DNA of 26,355 nucleotides. Source: a virus. A program made the translations under genes and the position numbers. The notes below the pieces were generated by a model. That model worked only from the letters and a program-made list of their open reading frames with translations, searched no databases and was not told the DNA's origin. The stretch spans positions 1 to 26,355 of IMG/VR virus record IMGVR_UViG_3300031565_000315, one strand, 5' to 3'. Shown piece by piece: positions 2,538 through 18,565 of this stretch (positions are counted from its first letter, which is position 1; each line of letters begins with the position of its first letter).

Positions 2538-2879
2538 TTATTCCTCAACATCGTAAACAGTACAAACTGGTTGATCGACCATCACTCTTATACGTTGTTC
2601 AAATGTACATTCAGTCAACGTTTTTATATTTTTTTCAATACATTTAAGACAGAATTGTAAATACACATCTTTTTCACCAGCATATTTTTCATATATACCA
2701 ACATTATTTACATACTCATTAATTTCAAACATTATAGCAGCTAAACACTCTTGAAGCATCTCAATCTTTAGTTCTTTAAATCTTTTTCTAGCTGTTTCTT
2801 CTGATGCACAAACATGTTTTATCTGGCTCCAATCCATTCCATCATTTGAAATAACGTATACTTTTTTCATCATGTCCAT
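2538..2879 (-). CDS. Unknown 113-residue protein
   Basis: Starts MDMMKKVYVISNDGMDWSQIKHVCASEETARKRF. The first strand plus the phrase VCASEETARKRFKEL resembles small phage proteins of the type 'receives event, then helix', but no enzyme motif is present. Three in-frame ATGs (2879, 2873, 2870) compete; the upstream Lys-rich gene ends at 2870, so start and stop are interleaved. Five cysteines are scattered and do not form a clear zinc site. Function unknown. Confidence 0.6.
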   Translation of the reverse strand: MDMMKKVYVISNDGMDWSQIKHVCASEETARKRFKELKIEMLQECLAAIMFEINEYVNNVGIYEKYAGEKDVYLQFCLKCIEKNIKTLTECTFEQRIRVMVDQPVCTVYDVEE

Positions 2880-3010
2880 TGTTTTCTTTCAATTTTATAA
2901 TTTCTGTCATTGTCTTTTATTGCTTTATCTTTTTCTTTTTTTCTTAACTTACCTTCTTCTTTTTCTTTTTTCTTTAAATACTTTTTAGATCGTTTTGTTG
3001 CTTTAGGCAT
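2870..3010 (-). CDS. Lysine-rich 46-residue protein
   Basis: A short gene between the genes at 2538 and 3003. It starts MPKATKRSKKYLKKK, and 20 of its 46 residues are Lys or Arg, with a periodic Lys/Glu pattern suggesting one charged helix. The ATG at 3010 overlaps the upstream stop (ATGCCTAA), has AAGGAAAG before it, and its TGA overlaps the next gene's start, a strong sign of a real, coupled gene. It may bind nucleic acid; this is an inference from charge only. Confidence 0.55.
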   Translation of the reverse strand: MPKATKRSKKYLKKKEKEEGKLRKKEKDKAIKDNDRNYKIERKQWT

Positions 3011-3347
3011 TTTCTTTCCTTAGTAATTTTCTATCTATTTCTTCCTTATCAAAATTCTTATATTCATCATGCTCAAATGAGTAGGAGTTAAGAAGATAGC
3101 TAAGTGCTGTAGTAATACAAGTAAGTTCTATCTTGAGCGATTCATTTTTTAATTTGGTGTTACAGTTGAAACTTATTTGAACCAGCAAATTACCCATATA
3201 TCTAAGTCTATCTTTAAAGTTTTCAGGCAATAAAGCCACATATGGACATAATCCTGCCTCAATTAGAGATTCCTGAGATATTCGATCTAAATATATTCCG
3301 CTTGGTTTCTTTATCTCTGCTAGAAGTTCTTCTTTTGATAATAACAT
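3003..3347 (-). CDS. Unknown 114-residue protein
   Basis: Starts MLLSKEELLAEIKKPSG, with a clear AAGGAG site. The protein appears mostly helical with a hydrophobic stretch in the middle (CITTALSYLLNSY) that is too polar around it to be a membrane segment. No motif recognised. It lies just downstream of the tRNA-Leu pair, which is 23 bases before its start, so the tRNAs must be cut out of the same transcript. Confidence 0.62.
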   Translation of the reverse strand: MLLSKEELLAEIKKPSGIYLDRISQESLIEAGLCPYVALLPENFKDRLRYMGNLLVQISFNCNTKLKNESLKIELTCITTALSYLLNSYSFEHDEYKNFDKEEIDRKLLRKENA

Positions 3348-3370
3348 GGTTTCTCCTTATATTAGTTATA

Positions 3371-3451
3371 TACCAGGAGCGAGATTTGAACTCGCACGCA
3401 CAAGGCACCAGATTCTAAGTCTGGCGTGTCTCCCAATTCCACCATCCTGGC
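3371..3451 (-). tRNA. tRNA-Leu (anticodon UAG)
   Basis: An 81-base class II cloverleaf. The acceptor stem GCCAGGA/TCCTGGT has a G-U first pair and is followed by discriminator A. Anticodon stem CCAGA/TCTGG closes loop CTTAGAA (anticodon TAG, codon CUA). The short variable arm is GC...GC, and the T arm is GCGAG-TTCAAAT-CTCGC. CCA is not encoded. Only four bases separate it from the next tRNA. Confidence 0.93.
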
Positions 3452-3455
3452 GTAA

Positions 3456-3534
3456 TGGCCAAGCCGAGATTCGAACTCGGACGCCGAAGCAAGGGATTTT
3501 GAATCCCTCATGTCTGCCATTCCATCACTTGGCC
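3456..3534 (-). tRNA. tRNA-Leu (anticodon CAA)
   Basis: A 79-base class II tRNA. Acceptor GGCCAAG/CTTGGCC with discriminator A; anticodon stem AGGGA/TCCCT with loop TTCAAAA (anticodon CAA, codon UUG). The variable arm is a minimal GC-TTCG-GC hairpin; the T arm is CCGAG-TTCGAAT-CTCGG. The body resembles enterobacterial tRNA-Leu(CAA). CCA is not encoded. Its 5' end lies two bases after the stop codon of the upstream gene. Confidence 0.93.
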
Positions 3535-3536
3535 AT

Positions 3537-3926
3537 TTACAGTGCTTTTAGAAAATCAAAAAACCAACTACTAAAATCACCATCTTTATTACGATGATTG
3601 TACTTCTCAATACCCATCTCTTTTACAAAATCTAATCTATCTTTAGGTGTAAGATTTATAATATTTTTTAAGTAATTCATTAAAACAGGAGCAATTCCTT
3701 TTACATTCTTAAAAAAGATAGGTCGATTATGTAAAAGACGCCATCCAGCATGTCCTCTACCTTCTTCTCTTGAAAACATATCTTTTGGATTACAGAAACT
3801 AAATCCAACCAAAAGATTAAAAGTTCCATCATCTTGTGTATGCACCATACAAGCTGCTGTAGCTGCACCATTCTTACGTCTGAAGTGCCTGTACGTGAAA
3901 AAGTATCCAGGTTTTTCTTTTTTCAT
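3537..3926 (-). CDS. Unknown 129-residue basic protein
   Basis: Starts MKKEKPGYFFTYRHFRRKNG, with a GGGAGAAG-type site upstream. It has an N-terminal beta-rich part with the phrase TAACMVHTQDDGTFNLLVGFSFC and a C-terminal helical part ending SSWFFDFLKAL. No family recognised with confidence. Its stop codon falls immediately before the tRNA-Leu(CAA) gene, so the transcript reads through into the tRNAs. Confidence 0.62.
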   Translation of the reverse strand: MKKEKPGYFFTYRHFRRKNGAATAACMVHTQDDGTFNLLVGFSFCNPKDMFSREEGRGHAGWRLLHNRPIFFKNVKGIAPVLMNYLKNIINLTPKDRLDFVKEMGIEKYNHRNKDGDFSSWFFDFLKAL

Positions 3927-3936
3927 TGTCTTCTCC

Positions 3937-4260
3937 CTATTTCAATTTTAATTCATTTGCAAGCATTTTTGCCATTTTATATTGCATATTACGTTCTGCT
4001 GCTCTAGTCATTCCTATATTACGACTTATTGAATTAAGTTTATTTCTGTTTTCTTTTATTCGCATTGATTTAAATGCTTGAAAAAACCAATACATATCCA
4101 ATAATAAAGCACCATTACGTTTATTAATTCCTGAACTTTTTACAGCTTTCATTAAATTCTTTCTAGTAAGGCGCATTCCTTTTGGAAATACACGATCAAA
4201 TTCTTTACGTCCAGAAACACAGGCTTTTTCATTTTTTAACCACTCTCTTGTGATTTTCAT
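3937..4260 (-). CDS. Unknown basic, helical protein
   Basis: A 107-residue, strongly basic protein (KITREWLKNEKACVSGRKEF at the N-terminus), helical throughout, with the phrase MTRAAERNMQYKMAKMLANEL near the end. It has a possible nucleic-acid-binding character but no known domain. The start overlaps the upstream stop by four bases (ATGA). Function unknown. Confidence 0.6.
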   Translation of the reverse strand: MKITREWLKNEKACVSGRKEFDRVFPKGMRLTRKNLMKAVKSSGINKRNGALLLDMYWFFQAFKSMRIKENRNKLNSISRNIGMTRAAERNMQYKMAKMLANELKLK

Positions 4261-4496
4261 TTTTCCATTCCTTTCAAAGCTTGATCAGCAAGTTCATTCA
4301 TTTTTCCACCAAGTAAACCCCATATATAATCAATTACAAGTTGATGTGTCTTTTCCATATTTTTAATGACTCTTTGATCAATGGAATTTAAATTTTTCCA
4401 ATCTACAAAGTTTTCATTCAATGCTTCTATCACCATTCTGACTGCTTTAGATAGTCTTAGAGCATATGCAAGTTTATTTTGTTCTCTTGTCAACAT
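4257..4496 (-). CDS. Unknown 79-residue helical protein
   Basis: Starts MLTREQNKLAYALRLSKAVR. It appears all-helical with no Cys. The ATG lies 23 bases inside the upstream gene's 3' end, and its own stop overlaps the next start, giving tight coupling in both directions. No motif recognised. Confidence 0.58.
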   Translation of the reverse strand: MLTREQNKLAYALRLSKAVRMVIEALNENFVDWKNLNSIDQRVIKNMEKTHQLVIDYIWGLLGGKMNELADQALKGMEK

Positions 4497-4815
4497 TTCT
4501 TAGATACTCTTTCTTTTCGTTGTCAATTAATTTAATGTATTCAGTACAAACTTCTAACATTTCTTTTTTTGATAGAATAATAAAATCTTTATATTGAGTG
4601 ATGTTCTTATTAGGAAATGTTGAACTTTCTCCAGTATATATTGTATTCTTACCTATTGCAATTACCGCCTCTGGATTTTTTCCTATTGCTAGATAAGGAA
4701 CTAAATATACTTGTTTTTTAACTTCTTCTAAAGATAGAGGAAATAATGCATATCCTTTAATATGCTGTGCAACTTGTTCAATTGTACATCCATATTCTTG
4801 TCTTGTAAGAAGCAT
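4474..4815 (-). CDS. Unknown 113-residue protein
   Basis: Starts MLLTRQEYGCTIEQVAQHIK, where residues 10-25 look like the first helix pair of a DNA-binding or recognition domain but without a convincing complete HTH. The middle has short strands (YLVPYLAIGKN, AVIAIGKNTIYTGE). The C-terminus is charged and helical. The start has AAAGGATC upstream. Function unknown. Confidence 0.58.
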   Translation of the reverse strand: MLLTRQEYGCTIEQVAQHIKGYALFPLSLEEVKKQVYLVPYLAIGKNPEAVIAIGKNTIYTGESSTFPNKNITQYKDFIILSKKEMLEVCTEYIKLIDNEKKEYLRNVDKRTK

Positions 4816-4833
4816 TTTGATCCTTTCATAAAA

Positions 4834-5061
4834 TTAGTCTTCTGAATTTTCTCCATACACTTTATTCATCCAAGGTACATCATGGTATGCATATTTTATT
4901 TCTCCAGTGTTTATATTCTTGTAAACCATTTGATCCATGAACTTACTATCTTTGAACATCAACCCTTGTTGTATTCGTTTCCATTCATTTCGATCAAATA
5001 AAACAGCATCTTTTTGTAGTACATCTTTTACATGATCAAGTGCTTTTTCAAACTCGTCCAT
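4834..5061 (-). CDS. Unknown 75-residue acidic protein
   Basis: Starts MDEFEKALDHVKDVLQKDAV, with a strong AGGAGG site. The N-terminal half is a helix; the C-terminal half has aromatic residues and the acidic end YGENSED. No motif recognised. It lies 25 bases downstream of the tRNA-Met gene and is the first protein gene of the 5.1 to 2.1 kb operon. Confidence 0.62.
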   Translation of the reverse strand: MDEFEKALDHVKDVLQKDAVLFDRNEWKRIQQGLMFKDSKFMDQMVYKNINTGEIKYAYHDVPWMNKVYGENSED

Positions 5062-5086
5062 CTACTCCTCCTATAACCTCAAAAAA

Positions 5087-5160
5087 TGGACCCTCCAGGA
5101 TTCGAACCTGGAATCAACCGGGTATGAACCGGACGCTTTAGCCAGTTAAACTAAGGGTCC
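5087..5160 (-). tRNA. tRNA with CAU anticodon (Met, or Ile if lysidine-modified)
   Basis: A 74-base class I cloverleaf. Acceptor GGACCCT/AGGGTCC plus discriminator A; D stem GTTT/AAGC; anticodon stem TCCGG/CCGGT (one T-T mismatch at its top) with loop TTCATAC; T arm CCAGG-TTCGAAT-CCTGG. CCA is not encoded. The first acceptor pair is G-C, so it is not a typical bacterial initiator with an unpaired C1. Elongator Met and Ile2 (CAU converted by TilS) are both possible. Confidence 0.9.
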
Positions 5161-5251
5161 ATTATTTATTTTTACCAAATTTTTAATCTTCAAATAAATT
5201 TTTAATAATTCGAACCTTTATTTTTGTTTATAATTAAAAAATTTACAATCA

Positions 5252-5280
5252 TTGACATTCTATTAATTTATTATTATATT
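5252..5280 (+). promoter_or_regulatory. Promoter for the HNH gene, probably leaderless
   Basis: TTGACA at 5252-5257, a 17-base spacer, and TATATT at 5275-5280. Only six bases lie between the -10 box and the ATG at 5287, so the predicted start of transcription is the A of the ATG or very near it. The rest of 5161-5286 is about 125 bases of AT-rich DNA with no other convincing signal. Confidence 0.6.
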
Positions 5281-5286
5281 GTTTTT

Positions 5287-5829
5287 ATGAAATGTCTATT
5301 ATGTGAAAAATATACAAAGAATAATAAATTTTGTAGTCGATCATGTGCAGCTACTTATAACAATCGAAAAAACCCTAAAAGAAAACGTAGAGTAAAATGT
5401 AAATCTTGTGATCAATTAATTTTAGCAAATAGAACATATTGTTCACTTTGTTGGGGTGGTAAAAAGACTCGAACACATAAAAATTGTCCTGATTGTGGTG
5501 AAAGACTTCTACTAGAAATGTTTCATATGATAAACGGAAAATTCCCAAGACCTTTGCGTAGATGTAAAGAATGCCATAGAAAATGGAAAAATAAACGTAA
5601 ATTAGACTTTAAGAAAAAATGCGTAAAATACAAAGGTGGAAAATGTGAAATATGTGGATATAATAAGTGTTTAGCCTCCCTTGTTTTTCACCACAAAAAT
5701 GATTATACCAAAGAGTTTGAAATAGGCACTGTATGGCCTGTAAAAAACTTAACCGAAAAAATTATCAAAGAACTAAGTAAATGTCAACTATTATGCTCTA
5801 ATTGCCATGGTGAATTGCATTTTTCTTAA
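5287..5829 (+). CDS. HNH endonuclease with several zinc-binding modules (homing-type)
   Basis: A 180-residue protein. An upstream in-frame start at 5224 would precede the promoter, so the ATG at 5287 is chosen. Cys pairs are seen at 3/6 and 16/20, 38/41 and 52/55, 67/70 and 93/96, giving up to three zinc ribbons or knuckles. They are followed by the HNH core: C120-x2-C123, H135-H136 and C170-x2-C173 with H174 and H178 (SNCHGELH). The protein is very basic. It fits free-standing HNH homing endonucleases, which often sit beside tRNA genes in phages. It is on the opposite strand to its neighbours and next to the tRNA-Met, consistent with a mobile insertion. No ribosome site is visible. Confidence 0.82.
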   Translation: MKCLLCEKYTKNNKFCSRSCAATYNNRKNPKRKRRVKCKSCDQLILANRTYCSLCWGGKKTRTHKNCPDCGERLLLEMFHMINGKFPRPLRRCKECHRKWKNKRKLDFKKKCVKYKGGKCEICGYNKCLASLVFHHKNDYTKEFEIGTVWPVKNLTEKIIKELSKCQLLCSNCHGELHFS

Positions 5830-5864
5830 TATAATTAAATCCTACTATAGTTTATCTACCCGTT

Positions 5865-6116
5865 TTATCCTTTATCGTTAGCAAATACAAAGTCATCATC
5901 TATAAAAGTAAAACGCTTATCTTTTTTACGTAAACATTTAGGACATACTAATTCATATATTTTACCACATCTTATATCAGATCCTGCAAAAACAAGATGC
6001 CAATCAATTGGAATATAAATTAAATGTTCATGTAAAACTAACTTAATACCAACCATTGATGATTTTCCACATCTATAACATTTTGGTATGGTATGTATTT
6101 CTTCAAGTTCAATCAT
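5865..6116 (-). CDS. Small zinc-ribbon-like protein
   Basis: An 83-residue protein with C-x2-C at residues 13-16 (CYRC) and a second pair CPKC near residue 58, separated by a beta-rich hydrophobic stretch (IKLVLHEHLIYIPIDWHLVF), which suggests one treble-clef or split zinc ribbon with an insertion. The C-terminus is acidic and aromatic. GAGGAG lies before the ATG. It converges with the HNH gene. It could serve as a detached nucleic-acid-binding module; function unknown. Confidence 0.65.
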   Translation of the reverse strand: MIELEEIHTIPKCYRCGKSSMVGIKLVLHEHLIYIPIDWHLVFAGSDIRCGKIYELVCPKCLRKKDKRFTFIDDDFVFANDKG

Positions 6117-6203
6117 TTATTTCTCCTCTAACAAAAAACATTACCCAACAAAAAATAAATTATAATACTATAAATACTAAGCAAAACTACAAGTACTTTT
6201 TCT

Positions 6204-6695
6204 TTATTCGTTAACTTCTTCATCGCCTTCATATACCTTTTTCTTTAAACCCTCTTTAATTTCTTCCATTTGTTTTTTTGTGAATTTATGTGATCCTGGA
6301 GAAAGGATTTCTCTTGCCCCTGCGATAATTCTAAAGAAGCATTTACTATTATGTGCCTCTGGAACATAAAAATCTGAATCATCTAGAACAGCAGCCATTC
6401 TTTTCCAACCCCATCTAACAGACATAGCACCAGCAAGAAGACATTCAAGAGCATCTTTATCTGGGTTTGATTCACCATCATCACTTATGCGCCAATCAAC
6501 ACAATCAGCTAATTTAAACGCTTCTTGTATCTGTCCTGGACCACATGATTTAAAAATCCTACTTAGCCTAACACGATTTGTTATACCTTTACTCTTTAAA
6601 AACTCATATTGTTCTCTAGCAAACTCCTTCTTATCCTTTAGTTTTTCAATAACCTGTTCAACATTTTCTTCTTCTTTTTTTTGATTCGTTTCCAT
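6204..6695 (-). CDS. Unknown 163-residue protein
   Basis: Starts METNQKKEEENVEQVIEKL. The ATG at 6695 follows AAGGAG by six bases; an upstream ATG at 6716 lies within the -10 box and cannot be used from this promoter. The N-terminal 45 residues form a charged helix or coiled coil. The remainder contains SCGPGQIQEAFKLADCVDW and LAGAMSVRWGWKRMAAVLDD, suggesting a compact helical domain, and the C-terminus is again highly charged. Its promoter overlaps the end of the primase gene, so it has its own transcript. The 87 bases after its stop hold no clear signal. Confidence 0.68.
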   Translation of the reverse strand: METNQKKEEENVEQVIEKLKDKKEFAREQYEFLKSKGITNRVRLSRIFKSCGPGQIQEAFKLADCVDWRISDDGESNPDKDALECLLAGAMSVRWGWKRMAAVLDDSDFYVPEAHNSKCFFRIIAGAREILSPGSHKFTKKQMEEIKEGLKKKVYEGDEEVNE

Positions 6696-6714
6696 CGTAT
6701 TCTCCTTGTATGTC

Positions 6715-6742
6715 ATTATACTAAAATTACCATAATTGTCAA
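6715..6742 (-). promoter_or_regulatory. Sigma-70-type promoter, 16-base spacer
   Basis: TTGACA (6742-6737), 16 bases, TATAAT (6720-6715) on the minus strand; start predicted near 6708. The TGA inside the -35 box is the stop codon of the primase gene, so the promoter and the upstream coding end are fused. Confidence 0.85.
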
Positions 6743-7473
6743 CTATTTTTTAGTGCTAAAAACTTATCTTTTCCAAATTCCTTTATAAAATCATCAGGAT
6801 CATAAGCATCTGGTAGTTCCATATTACCTCCATATATATTAAAATGTTCTAAAGTCTTTTTGGCTCTTACTTGTGCTTCCCTTCCAGCCTTATCACCATC
6901 AAAGCATGTATAAACCTCGTCTGTCCATCTTCTAAGCAATAAGGCATGTTCTTCTCTACAAGCTGTCCCACAGGTTCCAATGACGTTTCTTATTTTATTT
7001 TCTATTAAAGATAAGACATCAAAGTAGCCCTCAACCATAATTGCATAATCTAGTTTATGTATTGGTTGTTTTGCATAATCTAATATGTATAAAAGTTCTC
7101 CTTTATTATACAAAAGTGTTTCTCTTGAGTTTAGATATTTTATGTCATGATCGATTATTGTCCTTCCACCAAATCCTACAACTTGCCCATTATTAAAAAC
7201 AGGAAACATTATTCTATTAGTAAAAATCTCATAGGGTGACTTATCATCGTTTAGCTGAATTAATCCAGCCTTCAAAGCTGTATTTATTTCTATATTATTC
7301 TTTTTTAGGAAGTCGATAAGACCGCGTTTTGGAGCATAGCCTAAAAAGAACTTTTGGATTGTTTCTTTTTGTAAGCGTTTGAATAGATAAGCTTTTGCTT
7401 TATCACTTTTGTCAAGTGATTTACAAAAATACTTTAGTGCAATTTTGTTTGCTTGTAATAAAAGTTGTTTCAT
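6739..7473 (-). CDS. DnaG-like primase core (Toprim), no zinc-binding domain
   Basis: A 244-residue protein matching the RNA polymerase core of bacterial DnaG: the Toprim-N part with RIMFPVFNNGQVVGFGGR (about 88-105) and KYLNSRETLLYNKG, then the Toprim metal-binding residues E148 (VEGYFDV), D192-G-D194 (FDGDKAGREA) and DPDDF at 225-229. Its role would be RNA primer synthesis for phage DNA replication. The first residues align with the beginning of the DnaG core, so the N-terminal CHC2 zinc domain, which selects template start sites, is absent, as is the C-terminal helicase-binding domain. The missing zinc domain may be encoded elsewhere, or the enzyme may work differently. It is transcribed from the promoter at 7517-7544; the ribosome site is weak (GAGA). 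Confidence 0.85.
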   Translation of the reverse strand: MKQLLLQANKIALKYFCKSLDKSDKAKAYLFKRLQKETIQKFFLGYAPKRGLIDFLKKNNIEINTALKAGLIQLNDDKSPYEIFTNRIMFPVFNNGQVVGFGGRTIIDHDIKYLNSRETLLYNKGELLYILDYAKQPIHKLDYAIMVEGYFDVLSLIENKIRNVIGTCGTACREEHALLLRRWTDEVYTCFDGDKAGREAQVRAKKTLEHFNIYGGNMELPDAYDPDDFIKEFGKDKFLALKNS

Positions 7474-12385: not shown

Positions 12386-12613
12386 TCAGTATTTTACTTT
12401 TGCCAGATATTTATCCAATATTCCTAATCTTCTTGGATTTGGAATAGATATACACCGGCTAAAGAACATATCTTCATCAGGTGTTGTTGTGAGTAAGTCA
12501 CCCATATCATCCAAATCTGTATCACTTACTACTGTCCATTCACCCCTTTTCATCTTTAACCATTTTCCCATCAAAGTGTCATTGCTATTTTTTCTTAGGT
12601 CTGTATTTTTCAT
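12386..12613 (-). CDS. Unknown 75-residue protein
   Basis: Starts MKNTDLRKNSNDTLMGKWLK, with AGGAGAAAC before the ATG at 12613. A Trp/Lys-rich strand is followed by an acidic segment (SDTDLDDMGDLLTTTPDEDM) and a basic C-terminus. No family recognised. Confidence 0.58.
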   Translation of the reverse strand: MKNTDLRKNSNDTLMGKWLKMKRGEWTVVSDTDLDDMGDLLTTTPDEDMFFSRCISIPNPRRLGILDKYLAKVKY

Positions 12614-12623
12614 TTCGTTTCTC

Positions 12624-12839
12624 CTATGATTGATATCTATCTCCCCTACCCGGAATACCAAGAATAACCATCCAACATATACGTTCGTCTAAATTCCTGT
12701 ACGTTGTTGTTAACATTACACGATGACGAATGCCTGTATTGGATAACAATCGTGCAGCACGTACCGCTCTGGAATGCGATGAGTATTGACCAATTCTTTC
12801 ATCATTACGTTTTATAAATGAAAAGGATAGTTTAGTCAT
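12624..12839 (-). CDS. Unknown 71-residue basic protein
   Basis: Starts MTKLSFSFIKRNDERIGQYS. The sequence SSHSRAVRAARLLSNTGIRHRV is Arg-rich and helical. It overlaps the upstream gene by four bases (ATGA) with GGAGAT before the start. It may bind RNA or DNA by charge; no domain recognised. Confidence 0.58.
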   Translation of the reverse strand: MTKLSFSFIKRNDERIGQYSSHSRAVRAARLLSNTGIRHRVMLTTTYRNLDERICWMVILGIPGRGDRYQS

Positions 12840-13033
12840 AACCTGATCTCCATCCTTTTTACATAAACCAATGGTACAATCCGAGTCCCTAGAAAGTTAG
12901 CACCACGATCAACTGTAGCTGCACAAAACTCTCCAAAGGGACCAACAAGATATGAGTTGACTGTGATATTGCGACCATCTTCAGTTTCGATACGTACTAC
13001 TTTTGAAGGGGCATAACGGGAATTAGATTCCAT
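12836..13033 (-). CDS. Unknown 65-residue protein, first gene of the sigma-factor operon
   Basis: Starts MESNSRYAPSKVVRIETEDG, with a strong AGGAGG site. It is beta-rich (VVRIETEDGRNITVNSYLVG, TRIVPLVYVKRMEIRL), like a small OB or SH3-type fold, but no specific family. It lies directly downstream of the promoter at 13062-13091. Confidence 0.6.
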   Translation of the reverse strand: MESNSRYAPSKVVRIETEDGRNITVNSYLVGPFGEFCAATVDRGANFLGTRIVPLVYVKRMEIRL

Positions 13034-13061
13034 AATTGTTTTCCTCCTCTATAATAAGTAC

Positions 13062-13091
13062 AGTATACTCTAGCACACCTTCGCTTGTCAA
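13062..13091 (-). promoter_or_regulatory. Sigma-70-type promoter, 18-base spacer
   Basis: TTGACA (13091-13086), 18 bases, TATACT (13067-13062) on the minus strand; start near 13055. It differs from the other promoters here in spacer and -10 box. It would drive the 13.0 to 9.1 kb operon with the sigma factor. Confidence 0.65.
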
Positions 13092-13163
13092 GTAAAAAAT
13101 GACAAAATATATAAATTTTTTTATTGAGTAAAATTAGGTAGTTATAACAAATGTGGTTGAAAG

Positions 13164-13997
13164 CTATGAATCATCAATAATAGAATCAACAGTAAAACCT
13201 ACAACATTTAAAAATTCTTCTTCTCCGATAACTTTTGTTCCAAGCGTTAAAGCCTTTTTTGATTTAGTGGTTTGTGAAGCTGGATCGGCCTGTACCAGAT
13301 AAGTAAGACCCTTCGAGACAGAAGATTTAAATTCTCCACCAAGAGATTCTACTACCTTCTTAGCATGACTACGTTTAATGTTTAATGCACCAGTAAAACA
13401 AAACGACTTACCTGTTAATTCTCCATCTTGCTTTTTCATGATCTCTACTCCATTTCGTAAGAGTTTAGCCAAAATTTTTCTTTTGTTTCTGATTCCCTTA
13501 TAAAACAAATTAGCTTTTACATTACCTATGCCTTCAAGGTTTTCTAGATCTTCTACAGACATTTCATAGATGTCGTCCAAATTGTCGAAACCAGCATTTA
13601 CTATTTTCTTACAAACTGTTCTACCTACGTTTGGGATGTTCAATCCAGCTAGGATAGTTTCAAGAGGAAGTTTTTTCTTTTTCTTTATGTTCCTAATTAT
13701 CTTAGTTGCTTTAGTTTTCTTGTAACCATCCATTAGAGTTAAATCATCTACAGTTAATCTATAAAGATCAGAAATATCTTTTACCTCAAATTCAAATAAA
13801 TTTGTGCTCATAATATCTTGTAAAAAAGCTGGACCAGCTTCTTCAATTTCTGTTACTTCTATCCATTTCAAAAAATCTCCAAGTCGTCTACCTGGACAAT
13901 CTTCGTTTGGACAAAATATATATTCACCTTCTCTAATTAATTTTGTGGAGCAGGATGGACAATCTTCAGGTGGTTTTATTTGACAACCGTTTTCCAT
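13164..13997 (-). CDS. ligB: NAD-dependent DNA ligase, C-terminal part (zinc finger, HhH, BRCT)
   Basis: A 277-residue second half of a LigA-type ligase. Four zinc ligands at C13, C16, C29 and C34; then the helix-hairpin-helix region (about 110-175, with NIPNVGRTVCKKIV and LEGIGNVKANLF); then a BRCT domain at about 195-270 (GKSFCFTGAL, VVESLGGEFKSSVSKGLTYLV). It contains no catalytic lysine, so it must assemble with the N-terminal half (14822-15922) to bind and seal nicks. The symbol follows the LigA/LigB naming of split phage ligases. It has its own AAGGAGG site, which lies inside the endonuclease gene; the overlap with that gene is 32 bases. No clear terminator follows. Confidence 0.88.
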   Translation of the reverse strand: MENGCQIKPPEDCPSCSTKLIREGEYIFCPNEDCPGRRLGDFLKWIEVTEIEEAGPAFLQDIMSTNLFEFEVKDISDLYRLTVDDLTLMDGYKKTKATKIIRNIKKKKKLPLETILAGLNIPNVGRTVCKKIVNAGFDNLDDIYEMSVEDLENLEGIGNVKANLFYKGIRNKRKILAKLLRNGVEIMKKQDGELTGKSFCFTGALNIKRSHAKKVVESLGGEFKSSVSKGLTYLVQADPASQTTKSKKALTLGTKVIGEEEFLNVVGFTVDSIIDDS

Positions 13998-14829
13998 TTA
14001 ATGCCTCCTTAAATAAATCCCTATTATTAAAACTTGACATAATAAAACTAACTTTAAGCTCTTTATCATAGTCAATCCCCAACGAATACTCTAATCTTTC
14101 AATTTCTTTTTCTTGTGTAATAATATGAGAATTCATATCATTTTTAAATGCATAATTATTTAAAGCTTTTATTTTCGCTTTATTTCTAGGATATTTCATA
14201 GCCCATTTAGGTTTTATTTCCCATAATTCTTTTATAGCACCATATTCCCATTCAAAGTAAAAATCTGGAATATATATGCGTTCTTGGTCTTCAAAAATAT
14301 AAGGAATTTGAAAAGGTTCAATAACAATTTTTGTAACTAATGGATGAGTTTCTAAAATAACAAAAATGCGCTTTTCCCAAGAAGATCTAATAATGACTGA
14401 TTTATCTGGAAATGTTTTTTCAGTTCCAGCTAATATTTCGTTATATTTTCCATATGTATAATTTCTATGTGTCTTAGCAACACCTCTAGATATTTTTATT
14501 TTTATTTCTTTTGTTCTAATATATTTTCCAGATATACCAATACCTTTTCCTTTTCTGTGCCTTTTAATTTTATTTATTGTTTCTTTGGTATGATTTCTTC
14601 CGTGCATGGGATTACCATGTGTTTTATAATACTCTTTAAAATGATACTGTACATTATTCTTTTTACTATATATTTTAGTTTTATTTATTTCTTCTTCAGA
14701 AAATACTGTTTTTAAGCCAAATTTATTTTTAAACTCATTAGTTGTAGTGTATCCATGAGACTGAATATGTTGTATAGTTAATCTTTTATATTCTTTTTTA
14801 CAAATTGGACAAATTATATATTTATGCAT
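13966..14829 (-). CDS. Homing-type endonuclease with PD-(D/E)XK-like core, inserted in the ligase
   Basis: A 287-residue protein. Residues 7-25 form a C2H2-type zinc finger (C7, C10, H21, H25). Residues about 71-120 hold two NUMOD3-like DNA-binding repeats (GNPMHGRNHTKETINKI and the basic GKYIRTKEIKIKISRG). The C-terminal half looks like a TnsA/VSR-type nuclease: E152 in RSSWEKR, EPFQIPY, P188-D189 in YIPDFYFEW and E204-I-K206 in LWEIKPK, i.e. a PD-(D/E)XK active site. NUMOD repeats are typical of homing endonucleases, although with HNH or GIY-YIG domains more often. Its start and stop overlap both ligase fragments, so it splits the ligase at the OB/zinc-finger border. The predicted target is an unsplit ligase gene at this junction. 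Confidence 0.78.
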   Translation of the reverse strand: MHKYIICPICKKEYKRLTIQHIQSHGYTTTNEFKNKFGLKTVFSEEEINKTKIYSKKNNVQYHFKEYYKTHGNPMHGRNHTKETINKIKRHRKGKGIGISGKYIRTKEIKIKISRGVAKTHRNYTYGKYNEILAGTEKTFPDKSVIIRSSWEKRIFVILETHPLVTKIVIEPFQIPYIFEDQERIYIPDFYFEWEYGAIKELWEIKPKWAMKYPRNKAKIKALNNYAFKNDMNSHIITQEKEIERLEYSLGIDYDKELKVSFIMSSFNNRDLFKEALNGKRLSNKTT

Positions 14830-15922
14830 CTATCTTTCCTTCTATATATGGTATTGTATCACCTCTTCTAGATACCAAAATCTTACAACCAATAAACAAT
14901 CCTAAATTCTGTATATTTGCATAGTTGTGTAAACTTGCTTTTCTTATATCAACACCTCCAATATGTACTTTATCAAAATGACCAACTGGTGTTAATCTTC
15001 CTGTCTTACCAACTTCCCACACTACATCACGTAAAATAGTTGATTTAGCTTTACTAGGAAACTTAAATGCTATCATCCCCTTTGGTCTGTTGTCCGTTAC
15101 ACCTAATCTATCTTGTATCTTTAAATCATTGCATTCGCAGACAAGTCCATCAATCTCATAATTTAAACTATCTCTTCGTGTCTCTTGATAGAAGTCATAA
15201 AGCTTAAATATTTCCTCAATAGAAACTACCTTATATGGTGGCATTTTTAAGCCGAGTGATTTCATAAATATTAATTGTTGTTCTTTAGTTTTAAAATCTT
15301 CTTTAGTATTAGTACAATAACAATCAAAATATTTTACTTGTAGATATTTTAATCTTTGATCTCGCTTCTTTCTACGTGTAAATCCAGCCGCTGCATTTCT
15401 AGGGTTTGAATAACCATCATCTTTGAAATGATTTTCAAAATCAGTTTTTGATATGATTACTTCACCACGTAGACTTCCAGAAAAGCCTGTTACTATCGGA
15501 TATACCCATTGTGCATGTCTAATGTTAGATGTTACGTTTTCCCCGATAACACCGTTACCGCGTGTTATAGCTTGTTTAAACTTTCCTTCTTCATAAACGA
15601 GTTCAATAGAAAGACCATCAAATTTTTCTGTTACTGCAAATACTTTTCCCCCTATTTTTTCAGCCCATTTTTTTAATTCTTCCTTTGTGTTTACTTTGCT
15701 CAAGGAATTCATGGAAATTAAATGTGCTGTTTTCGTTAAATGATTACTATGTACATCAGCACCAATGTCTTTTAATACAGGATGATCTGGATCTAGTTCA
15801 CGAAGTATGTTTTGTATACGATCAAAGCTAGAATCAGGCATAATAGGTTCACCAGTATAATAGGCTTCACTGGCTTCTCTATATAGTTTTACTAAATCAT
15901 CAATTTTTTTCTGGTGGTCCAT
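14822..15922 (-). CDS. ligA: NAD-dependent DNA ligase, N-terminal part (Ia, adenylation, OB)
   Basis: A 366-residue first half of LigA. Domain Ia carries YREASEAYYTGEP (NMN binding). The adenylation domain has the nucleophile K100 in EKFDG, SLRGEV and NPRNAAAGFTRR, IDGLVCEC and MIAFKFP (motif V). The OB fold ends RRGDTIPYIEGKIDA, just where the zinc finger begins in complete ligases. It can be adenylated by NAD+ in principle; joining needs the other half. In motif IV the Lys usual in LigA (DGxVxK) is replaced by Glu. The start at 15922 is chosen because AGGAG lies six bases before it, rather than the ATG at 15928. Confidence 0.9.
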   Translation of the reverse strand: MDHQKKIDDLVKLYREASEAYYTGEPIMPDSSFDRIQNILRELDPDHPVLKDIGADVHSNHLTKTAHLISMNSLSKVNTKEELKKWAEKIGGKVFAVTEKFDGLSIELVYEEGKFKQAITRGNGVIGENVTSNIRHAQWVYPIVTGFSGSLRGEVIISKTDFENHFKDDGYSNPRNAAAGFTRRKKRDQRLKYLQVKYFDCYCTNTKEDFKTKEQQLIFMKSLGLKMPPYKVVSIEEIFKLYDFYQETRRDSLNYEIDGLVCECNDLKIQDRLGVTDNRPKGMIAFKFPSKAKSTILRDVVWEVGKTGRLTPVGHFDKVHIGGVDIRKASLHNYANIQNLGLFIGCKILVSRRGDTIPYIEGKIDA

Positions 15923-16253
15923 CGTCATCTCCTAATACATATGATTCAGAACACAAGTCACAAAGAACACCCCAAGAAGGTAATTCATGAATCCAGGGTT
16001 CGTCTGGAGCTGCTGCCCAAGTTTTATTAAGCATTTTAGCAAGGGTGTGACCATGTTTATTTTTCTTAGCAGTCAATATAAACTCTAGATGCATATGATG
16101 ATTTATTTCTGGATTTGTTGTATTTAGATCTATTGGTAAAAAATTAGCCATTATTAGATCTATTGGTAAAAACTTAGCCATTATATCCATAAGATTTTCC
16201 CAATGTTCCTCTAAAGAAGCCCACCATTCTTTTTCGTTTTTTGGATAAGTCAT
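15900..16253 (-). CDS. Unknown protein with a 10-residue internal repeat
   Basis: A 117-residue protein starting MTYPKNEKEWWASLEEHWEN. Residues 25-44 hold two near-identical copies of IMA(K/N)FLPIDL, made by a 30-base tandem duplication. The later part has WGVLCDLCSESY (C-x2-C) and a Pro/Asp-rich end. GGAAGG precedes the ATG. It ends inside the ligase start region, overlapping it by 23 bases, so the ligase is translationally coupled. Function unknown. Confidence 0.62.
   Translation of the reverse strand: MTYPKNEKEWWASLEEHWENLMDIMAKFLPIDLIMANFLPIDLNTTNPEINHHMHLEFILTAKKNKHGHTLAKMLNKTWAAAPDEPWIHELPSWGVLCDLCSESYVLGDDDGPPEKN
16124..16183 (-). repeat. Two tandem 30-base units in coding sequence
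   Basis: 16124-16153 and 16154-16183 differ at one base (16143 versus 16173). The repeat is in frame and encodes the doubled IMA(K/N)FLPIDL segment. It is a recent slip or duplication. Confidence 0.9.
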
Positions 16254-16254
16254 T

Positions 16255-16452
16255 TTAACCTTCCTTTTTTCTATTTACATGATCGTCAACATCACAAAAA
16301 ACACAAATAGGCTGTGTTAAATTTCCTTCAATAAACACTTCCCATCCAGAATCATTAGCTTCTACAATAGGCTGTTTACACCTAGCACACAATAGTTTTT
16401 TATTACTATGTATTGGCTTTCCATTTACTGCTAATTCTTTGTCTTTGGACAT
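16255..16452 (-). CDS. Small zinc-ribbon protein
   Basis: A 65-residue protein starting MSKDKELAVNGKPIHS. CARC at 22-25 and CVFC at about 50-53 flank a hydrophobic strand pair (SGWEVFIEGNL), the classic spacing of a zinc ribbon. It is probably a nucleic-acid-binding or adaptor module. GGAGGAAT precedes the ATG. Confidence 0.7.
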   Translation of the reverse strand: MSKDKELAVNGKPIHSNKKLLCARCKQPIVEANDSGWEVFIEGNLTQPICVFCDVDDHVNRKKEG

Positions 16453-16469
16453 AATTTATTCCTCCGAAT

Positions 16470-16536
16470 GTTTATTTACTGAAACACCCCTATTTACTCA
16501 TGTAGTAAATAGGTCATATTTAGTAAATTACTATTT
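16470..16536. repeat. Cluster of TTTACT/AGTAAA elements with a 10-bp hairpin
   Basis: Between the genes at 16255 and 16531 the words TTTACT (16473-16478 and 16493-16498) and AGTAAA (16504-16509 and 16522-16527) recur, partly as inverted repeats. The best is a perfect 10-base stem (16489-16498 with 16504-16513, loop CATGT). No run of T follows on either strand. It may be an operator array or RNA processing element. Confidence 0.5.
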
Positions 16537-17063: not shown

Positions 17064-17765
17064 TTAATCTTTATCTAACTCAACCCAAATAATAGCAGAT
17101 TCATCTAATAGTTCAAGTTGAATTGTTGCATCCCAAGAATAATCAGTGAGACAACCCCTAGTTGTTCGTACACAGTGATAATCAGATACTATATCCATTT
17201 TACATTTTGATTTGTCTATTCCAAAAATTTCATTTGGGGCAAGAAGCTCAAAAGAAAGTGTATGGGCTGTTGTACAGAGTAACATGTTTGTCACAATCCC
17301 AACATAGCCTGCAACAATTAACTCACGTTGATTTACAGGATCGATCCAACCTCCACAGTCTTCTACAACAGACTTAACTGCACATCTAGGAATATGTACC
17401 CAGACATCTTCAGCAGATGATCCTCTATCATCGAATTCTTTTCGTATGGTTTCGATTGCAGTTTTAAAGTTTTTTTGTTTTATTGATTTTCTACGAATCA
17501 AATTAATAAGTGCAGTGTCTTCTTGAAAAATAAGAGCTTGCCTTCCCCTATCTTGTTCCACCGCAAGTGTGTCTATGGTTTGATTGAAAAGATTTAATTT
17601 ATAGTTTATTAATATTTTAGGACTAGTTAATGAGCTATCTGATTCAGAACAGACCTTCCCACAAAGAGATTCATATTCTATTATTTCTTTCACGGCTGGA
17701 AGTAATGCCTCACTTATTTCAAATGGTTTACACTTATCAATAAGTTCTTGCATAGTAGCTGTCAT
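17064..17765 (-). CDS. Unknown protein, tandem paralog B; possible HK97-fold relation
   Basis: A 233-residue protein clearly related along its length to the neighbour at 17768: shared YES..GK.C, QDRGRQ..IFQED.ALI.L.R, IPR, DPV.QR.LI.AGY.G, FEL.A.NE.FGI, .ISDY.C and a final ELLD....WVELDK. The order (a QED stretch, then IPR...DPV.QR.L..AGY.G, then a terminal strand) faintly recalls the capsid or encapsulin type of HK97 fold, but this is only a pattern impression. Three insertions and extra Cys set it apart from paralog A. It is the last gene of the 24.3 to 17.1 kb operon. Start with GGGATG upstream. Confidence 0.65.
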   Translation of the reverse strand: MTATMQELIDKCKPFEISEALLPAVKEIIEYESLCGKVCSESDSSLTSPKILINYKLNLFNQTIDTLAVEQDRGRQALIFQEDTALINLIRRKSIKQKNFKTAIETIRKEFDDRGSSAEDVWVHIPRCAVKSVVEDCGGWIDPVNQRELIVAGYVGIVTNMLLCTTAHTLSFELLAPNEIFGIDKSKCKMDIVSDYHCVRTTRGCLTDYSWDATIQLELLDESAIIWVELDKD

Positions 17766-17767
17766 AG

Positions 17768-18565
17768 TTACATCCCTTTATCTAATTCTACCCAAACTAC
17801 ATTATCTTTATCTAGTAATTCAAATTGAATAGTTGCTTCCCAAAAACAACTGTTTGCTTTCTTTATGCATTTATAATCAGATATGACTTTCCTTTTACAG
17901 CTATCTTTATTTATTCCAAACAATTCATTTTGGGCAGTAAGCTCAAATATTAAAGTTCCAGCAGTTGTTATTATTTGTGTATATGGTTCACTATCTCTAA
18001 GACCACCAATGTATCCAGCCATAATTAAATCACGTTGTCGTACTGGATCAATAGCATTACTACATTCATTTACAATATCTGATACTAAACTTCTAGGGAT
18101 AAATATATAATCACATGTTAATTCTCTTTTAGCAAAGTCTTTGATGATAGTATTAAAAGCATCAGTAATATTCTTTTCTTTTTTTGGTTTTTTTCTAAGC
18201 AGATCAATTAGTGCTTTGTCTTCTTGAAAAATAATATTTTGTCTTCCTCTATCTTGTATGCGTGCTAATTTATCAATAGGAGATGTATTTAGATCTGATT
18301 CATATAAATTTAAATCATACCCAACCTTAATTTCAGTACCATTTAATTCTATTTTAGATTTAGTACATATTTTTCCATGTGTTGATTCATATTCCATGAC
18401 TTCTTTTACAGGATTAAGTAAGGCTTTTGATAATTCTAAAGTGTTACCATCATTAATAAATTCTCTAATATTATCATCTAATATTTTTGCTTGCTTTTTT
18501 TGTTCATCAGATCCAAAAATCTTTTCTATCTTCTCACATGTTTCTTTTTCTTTATCAGTTTGCAT
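17768..18565 (-). CDS. Unknown protein, tandem paralog A; possible HK97-fold relation
   Basis: A 265-residue protein, two bases upstream of its paralog. It has an extra N-terminal charged helix of about 40 residues (KEKETCEKIEKIFGSDEQKK), which could be a scaffold-like or targeting extension. The conserved core starts near residue 45. The capsid-like reading (FQEDKALIDLL, then IPRSLVSDIV, DPVRQRDLIMAGYIGGL, GTLIFELTAQNELFGI, ATIQFELLDKDNVVWVELD) is a weak pattern match. Tandem duplication of such a gene is unusual outside virion genes. It overlaps the upstream gene by 40 bases and has AAAGGT before its ATG. Confidence 0.65.
   Translation of the reverse strand: MQTDKEKETCEKIEKIFGSDEQKKQAKILDDNIREFINDGNTLELSKALLNPVKEVMEYESTHGKICTKSKIELNGTEIKVGYDLNLYESDLNTSPIDKLARIQDRGRQNIIFQEDKALIDLLRKKPKKEKNITDAFNTIIKDFAKRELTCDYIFIPRSLVSDIVNECSNAIDPVRQRDLIMAGYIGGLRDSEPYTQIITTAGTLIFELTAQNELFGINKDSCKRKVISDYKCIKKANSCFWEATIQFELLDKDNVVWVELDKGM

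Follow-up and report, generated by a model that had tools for sequence, protein, structure and literature searches.

The 26,355-nucleotide stretch of viral DNA analysed here (IMG/VR record IMGVR_UViG_3300031565_000315, positions 1 to 26,355; hereafter the window) carries an NAD+-dependent DNA ligase gene in two pieces. By its sequence and predicted structure, the open reading frame (ORF) of 287 amino acids (aa) between them is most probably a free-standing homing endonuclease gene, and it occupies the hinge that joins the OB fold to the zinc finger in the phage ligase. Insertion of this nuclease gene likely made the ligase split. The three ORFs, LigN, the nuclease and LigC, overlap consecutively on the minus strand (Table 1). 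An initial annotation, made from the sequence alone, had described a ligase in two genes around one complete ORF, with overlaps of 8 and 32 bases and separate ribosome-binding sites, and the coordinates and sequence confirm this layout. LigN likely starts at the ATG at 15922, from which the spacing to its ribosome-binding site (AGGAG, 6 nt) is better than from 15928.

Taken together, the two ligase pieces make up a whole enzyme of the LigA type. LigN matches the Pfam profiles for the ligase adenylation domain (E 2e-47) and the OB fold (E 5e-21), with the Ia profile below the Pfam cut-off, while LigC matches BRCT and HhH, with a weak C4 zinc finger that is also below cut-off. The two proteins are consecutive stretches of a single phage ligase family, phrog_3869 (3-382 and 386-652 of 656 positions), and the full-length family matches are strong. 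The domain order Ia-adenylation-OB-Zn-HhH-BRCT, the KxDG motif and the four zinc cysteines are all present across the two ORFs. LigN ends in ...RRGDTIPYIEGKIDA and LigC begins with MENGCQIKPPEDCPSC, which places the hinge behind the conserved R-x-D-x-IP in which the OB fold ends. The pieces, each with its own start and stop, together cover the whole protein, and because the hinge lengths equal those of intact ligases, no ligase residues have apparently been lost. Were the insertion instead a knock-out that left a broken, non-functional ligase heading to decay, the intact motifs and lengths (EKFDG, four zinc cysteines, HhH and BRCT), the strong ribosome-binding site of LigC and the natural two-subunit ligases of the same type in T5-like phages (PMC4319617) would be difficult to account for, and we consider such a knock-out barely credible.

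Several other origins of the arrangement were considered. Its presence on another contig (L002; 99.95% identity across 8,579 bp, the nuclease gene being identical) rejects an assembly artefact; being near-identical, L002 is no independent lineage. A search of positions 12500-16500 against Rfam for an intron gave no match up to E 1, and the nuclease ORF also overlaps both would-be exons. Neither LigN nor LigC matches a Hint or intein profile in Pfam, and the hinge has no extra length. Folding of the RNA at the three gene starts gave no striking hairpins, and direct DNA comparison of the window with cultured phages gave no similarity.

By profile, conserved residues and predicted fold, the inserted ORF is a complete PD-(D/E)XK nuclease of the TnsA/gp4 group, in agreement with the nuclease core proposed in the initial annotation. 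This assignment is based on the following factors: 1) a match to the TnsA_N profile of Pfam above cut-off (E 5e-9); 2) a PHROGs match of the core to the T4 gp4 "head closure" family phrog_218 (E 1.5e-15), with a weaker match to the "endonuclease" family phrog_15427 (E 3.8e-5); 3) invariance of the catalytic E152, P188-D189 and E204-x-K206, all noticed at the outset, in an alignment of 22 sequences; and 4) an AlphaFold model with a nuclease fold. The wider set of residues conserved in the 22 aligned relatives comprises R148, S149, E152, E171, Y177, Y186, P188, D189, E201, E204, K206, P207 and K208. The C2H2 finger first noted is likewise present, with C7, C10, H21 and H25 as its ligands. The model is reliable for the finger and the nuclease core only (predicted local distance difference test scores of about 77-97 for residues 141-250 and about 88-97 for the core, against an overall mean of 69), and confidence is low for the central part of the protein. 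Because a PDB sequence search with the nuclease gave no match, folds were compared instead. The best match among solved structures is TnsA (Z 11.3, 2.8 A over 115 residues), by a clear margin over the next; the catalytic domain of I-Bth0305I has the same broad fold (Z 7.0), and I-Ssp6803I, although it may be homologous, is not among the structural matches listed.

Table 1. Coordinates of the split ligase, its inserted nuclease and the corresponding loci of two other phages (window positions unless a contig is named)
Feature	Coordinates	Strand	Description
LigN	14822..15928	-	368 aa; N-terminal NAD+-dependent DNA ligase part (Ia, adenylation with EKFDG, OB fold)
Nuclease ORF	13966..14829	-	287 aa; putative homing endonuclease (C2H2 finger, NUMOD3-like, TnsA/gp4-like PD-(D/E)XK core)
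LigC	13164..13997	-	277 aa; C-terminal ligase part (C4 Zn finger, HhH, BRCT)
Overlap, LigN stop region / nuclease start	14822..14829	-	8 bp
Overlap, nuclease end / LigC start	13966..13997	-	32 bp
LigN ribosome-binding site AGGAG	15929..15933	-	read from sequence
Nuclease ribosome-binding site AAGGA, within LigN coding sequence	14837..14841	-	read from sequence
LigC ribosome-binding site AAGGAGG, within nuclease coding sequence	14004..14010	-	read from sequence
MucR/ROS-type C2H2 zinc finger, residues 7-25	14755..14811	-	ROS_MUCR E 5e-4, below cut-off
NUMOD3-like motif, residues 76-94	14548..14604	-	E 0.064, below curated cut-off
PD-(D/E)XK nuclease core, about residues 126-250	14080..14454	-	E152, D189, E204, K206
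L099, 536-kb contig IMGVR_UViG_3300009031_000221	LigN 5888-7042; nuclease 3945-4766; LigC 2656-3459	-	335-aa ORF between LigN and nuclease; 134-aa ORF between nuclease and LigC
L105, 72.8-kb contig IMGVR_UViG_3300025121_000045	nuclease 4866-5813; LigC 5810-6607		nuclease overlaps both ligase halves

The closest relatives of the window nuclease themselves reside in split ligases. In two other, distantly related phages (L099 and L105) the ligase is broken at the same hinge and a homologue of the nuclease lies in the gap, with 31% identity to the window protein over 249 residues in L099 and 41% identity in L105. The L105 nuclease shares 17 bp with the end of the second LigN piece and 4 bp with the start of LigC. 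Intein halves (Pfam Intein_splicing E 2e-7 for the first, 0.004 for the second) also interrupt the LigN of this phage (2326-4882), directly behind its KxDG active-site motif, and a DUF559/Vsr-like nuclease ORF (3028-3972) lies between them. A gene broken by split-intein halves with a nuclease between them is the arrangement known as a fractured gene. The KxDG break of L105 would be healed by splicing, and its hinge break apparently would not. Adjoining the L099 nuclease is the 335-aa ORF (4768-5775), which contains a DGQHR sequence and has no Pfam or PHROGs match.

In all three phages the guanine-plus-cytosine (GC) content of the nuclease gene lies below that of the flanking ligase pieces (25.5 vs 33% in the window, 47.8 vs 55-59% in L099 and 30 vs 40-43% in L105), a foreign composition that supports insertion. 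This composition also bears on whether the nuclease has been co-opted for a phage function, such as work alongside the ligase in DNA processing or action against competing phages, and is no longer homing. Co-transcription and overlap of the nuclease with the ligase pieces, along with the kinship of its core to phage head-completion gp4 nucleases, would suit such a role; its low GC, its sporadic distribution (the window-type nuclease is absent from all 10 of the related-ligase records searched) and the modules it has in common with homing-type genes favour a selfish gene, and co-option seems to us highly improbable.

Members of the nuclease family also occur outside ligases. A scan of the coding DNA of viral contigs for E-x-W-E-[VIM]-K-P-K yielded numerous genes of the gp4 type, along with larger ORFs that join zinc-binding ends, significant NUMOD3 repeats and a TnsA-like core. 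Tail genes flank these larger ORFs in some phages, and in others the corresponding place is vacant: the same gene pair is occupied in L047 and L029 and separated by only 13-18 bp in L024 and L052. Two copies are found in L029, and the family is often near GIY-YIG genes. The zinc finger of the window nuclease is shared with L108-L110, and in two of these records it is joined to a DUF559/Vsr-like nuclease (62% identity over 34 aa in L108 and 56% over 32 aa in L109). In the T4-like phages HY03 (L117 1420-4272) and PspYZU05 (L116 1926-4760), a phrog_15427 member lies between two ORFs of the terminase large subunit and overlaps both; the HY03 protein matches that family at E 2.8e-102. The ends of the HY03 terminase pieces resemble a split intein by eye (...DEC^VAKDTKV... 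and ...VESHN^CAFIP...), with no Pfam intein match, and in JK32 (L115 1738-4849) the TnsA-like nuclease is fused to the first terminase piece. The tail-gene and terminase contexts are those expected of homing genes. The initial annotation had called the nuclease core unusual for a homing enzyme, which holds in comparison with textbook homing enzymes; the core is not unique, however, as its family occurs elsewhere in phages. No relative of the window nuclease was confirmed in bacterial genomes by single-protein searches, or with an alignment of the window and L023 proteins, and a first alignment of relatives (A1) was too divergent to serve as a search query. NUMOD3-TnsA-like nuclease genes stand close to a gp4-like gene in L029 (1432-5837) and L015 (954-2341), which hints that the homing core may derive from a neighbouring gp4 gene.

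The intact ligases anticipated by the initial annotation do exist, and they are the nearest relatives of the window ligase: L003 and L079 are uninterrupted single ORFs, and the hinge is also empty in L080-L085. The same hinge is split in other ways as well. In T5-like phages ligA and ligB (phrog_3359 and phrog_3498) are separated by about 200 bp, in most cases without a nuclease, in agreement with the two-subunit ligase that the initial annotation gave for T5. One T5-like Salmonella phage, vB_Sen_SG_WM_RUS_R2, carries a GIY-YIG ORF between the two genes (L114 1271-1912) with an 8-bp ligA overlap, and Vibrio relatives have other small genes there, one of them DprA-like. In the T5-like Salmonella phage INF11, ligA is itself two ORFs (L091 2977-3947), possibly by frameshift or sequencing error. 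In a 436-kb contig (L072, 3638-6116) the two ligase halves are encoded on opposite strands and the record contains no match to the nuclease; an unrelated 219-aa ORF separates the halves in L076, whose sister L077 is intact.

Trees were built on the joined ligase halves together with intact ligases, and constrained groups were compared by approximately unbiased (AU) tests. The window ligase clusters with the intact L003 and L079 (support 90/90), and the distribution of split ligases requires at least 3 changes on well-supported branches. The tested groups were picked after the trees had been viewed, so the p-AU values are approximate: a single origin of all splits including those of T5-like phages is rejected (p-AU 5e-59), as are a common origin of the window and T5-like splits (6e-4), an origin shared by the window and L099 alone (0.0025) and a clade of the three nuclease-bearing splits of the window, L099 and L105 (0.0125). 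Compatible with the data are single origins of the window with L072 (p-AU 0.07), with L099 and L072 (0.058), with L099, L105 and L072 (0.074) and with L105 alone (0.23). On the ligase trees the hinge has certainly been broken independently several times. We favour an independent arrival of the window nuclease over one old event, shared with L099 and L105 and followed by losses.

Several observations weigh against a nuclease that homed into the ligase and thereby split it. The same hinge split occurs without a nuclease in T5-like phages and L072; the arrangement in the window is observed in only two near-identical copies, too few to gauge purifying selection, and the two differ at 2 positions in LigN and nowhere else in the locus, too few for a ratio of nonsynonymous to synonymous rates. 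The NUMOD3-like repeats of the initial annotation were recovered only in part, as the motif falls under the cut-off in the window protein, though it is significant in several relatives. That annotation had also attributed the split to the insertion and had named as contrary evidence the same split in related phages with no endonuclease nearby. The intact nearest relatives favour the attribution, and the nuclease-free splits are literally that contrary evidence; for the T5-like phages its force is weakened because a common origin with the window split is rejected. The same annotation had proposed that ligase function survived the insertion, which the intact motifs allow.

Because the same split exists without a nuclease in the T5-like phages and L072, the split in the window may predate the nuclease: the ligase would already have been divided by another route, and a homing nuclease would have settled in the gap later without creating the two-protein enzyme. 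The other genes that occupy the hinge in L076, VCPH and Athena are consistent with such a history, as is the single origin of the window, L099, L105 and L072 splits that the AU test did not reject. The grouping of the window ligase with intact L003 and L079 speaks against it, as do the rejection of a clade of the nuclease-bearing splits, and of the window with L099 alone, and the direct overlap of the ORFs with no leftover DNA, which fits insertion into a continuous frame. On balance we regard an earlier split as unlikely.

With the 287-aa ORF as an inserted homing gene, the zinc finger and NUMOD3-like part would recognise, in a co-infecting phage, the hinge DNA of a ligase gene still in one piece. 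The PD-(D/E)XK core of the TnsA/gp4 kind would then cleave this empty hinge, and repair templated by the occupied copy would propagate the nuclease gene by the usual homing route. Insertion would fall between two folded parts of the ligase, with a new start, stop and ribosome-binding sites supplied inside the overlaps. The host gene would survive because the break lies between those parts and each piece is separately translated; LigN and LigC, made separately, would presumably assemble into a working ligase. Such assembly may occur by analogy with the nrdA/mobE pieces (PMC2988022) and the T5 ligase subunits (PMC4319617). We infer cleavage, homing, LigN/LigC assembly and ligase activity. More tentatively, and with slightly more doubt than belief, we suggest that a zinc-finger/NUMOD3 part joined to a TnsA/gp4-type core defines a distinct homing class, with lineages specialised for particular essential phage genes, one of which homed repeatedly and independently into the ligase hinge of unrelated phages, where selfish genes would recurrently convert a one-chain enzyme to one of two or three pieces.

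The ligase hinge has been broken in at least three to four lineages, where it is occupied by related nucleases, a GIY-YIG gene, nothing or other genes, and it looks like a repeated landing site for selfish genes. The choice of tolerated sites by selfish genes thereby becomes open to experiment, as does the idea that the T5 ligase and other two-subunit enzymes arose through insertions of this kind. NUMOD3 is usually associated with other nuclease types, and the window enzyme could represent an additional catalytic class among phage homing endonucleases. Elsewhere in the window, an ORF at 5224-5829 on the plus strand, opposite to its neighbours, encodes an HNH endonuclease (phrog_2255, E 3e-24) and is a possible second homing gene. 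A DnaG-type primase fragment at 6739-7473 on the minus strand covers positions 113-362 of a 577-position family, with the zinc-binding and C-terminal parts missing or elsewhere. Of two adjoining paralogous ORFs at 17064-18565 on the minus strand, only the second resembles a major head protein family, and weakly so (phrog_2522, E 1.4e-9).

Among known systems, the I-Bth0305I/EDxHD (Vsr-like) homing endonucleases are located between the halves of phage fractured genes. The window nuclease is like them in lying between gene halves, and in its finger, which has 62% identity over 34 aa to that of a DUF559 (Vsr-like) nuclease; it differs in its catalytic core and in having no split intein. I-Ssp6803I is a PD-(D/E)XK homing enzyme as well, but is intron-encoded; its likeness to the window nuclease is one of superfamily. 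The superfamily as such has been linked to homing before, since the abstract of a review (PMC6083498) counts PD-(D/E)XK as one of six homing families; homing enzymes of the TnsA/gp4 group with NUMOD3 seem to have received little description. In the open-access papers searched, no description of the split-ligase/nuclease arrangement was found, and this nuclease type does not feature among the homing enzymes. The T4 gp4 family is predicted to be PD-(D/E)XK (PMC1189080) and has the same core as the window nuclease, but gp4 is about 150 aa long, lacks the finger and NUMOD3 part and is located among head genes. The phrog_15427 nucleases of HY03 and PspYZU05 are closer in arrangement: they belong to the same TnsA-like family, have a zinc-binding N-terminus and overlap both halves of an essential gene. 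Their terminase halves carry the split-intein ends read by eye, unlike the window ligase, and the match of the window protein to phrog_15427 is modest.

The T5 ligase, described as A and B subunits (PMC4319617), is split at the same OB/zinc-finger hinge; most T5-like phages lack a nuclease there, one has the GIY-YIG gene, and a common origin with the window split is rejected. Few cases are known in which a homing endonuclease has split a gene with function kept: nrdA, probably T4 topoisomerase and, with an unclear sequence of events, phage 25 gene 43 (PMC2988022). The nrdA case comes from Aeromonas phage Aeh1, in which insertion of mobE splits the gene and the pieces are functional (Friedrich et al. 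2007, according to PMC2988022). There the nuclease is of the HNH type, the host gene is nrdA and function of the pieces has been demonstrated, whereas the window combines a TnsA/gp4-like PD-(D/E)XK nuclease with an NAD+ ligase whose pieces would presumably function. In both, a free-standing homing gene, putative in the window, interrupts an essential gene of DNA metabolism and leaves two pieces that are translated separately, with neither intron nor intein, and the window arrangement fits the mobE/nrdA kind in every feature examined.

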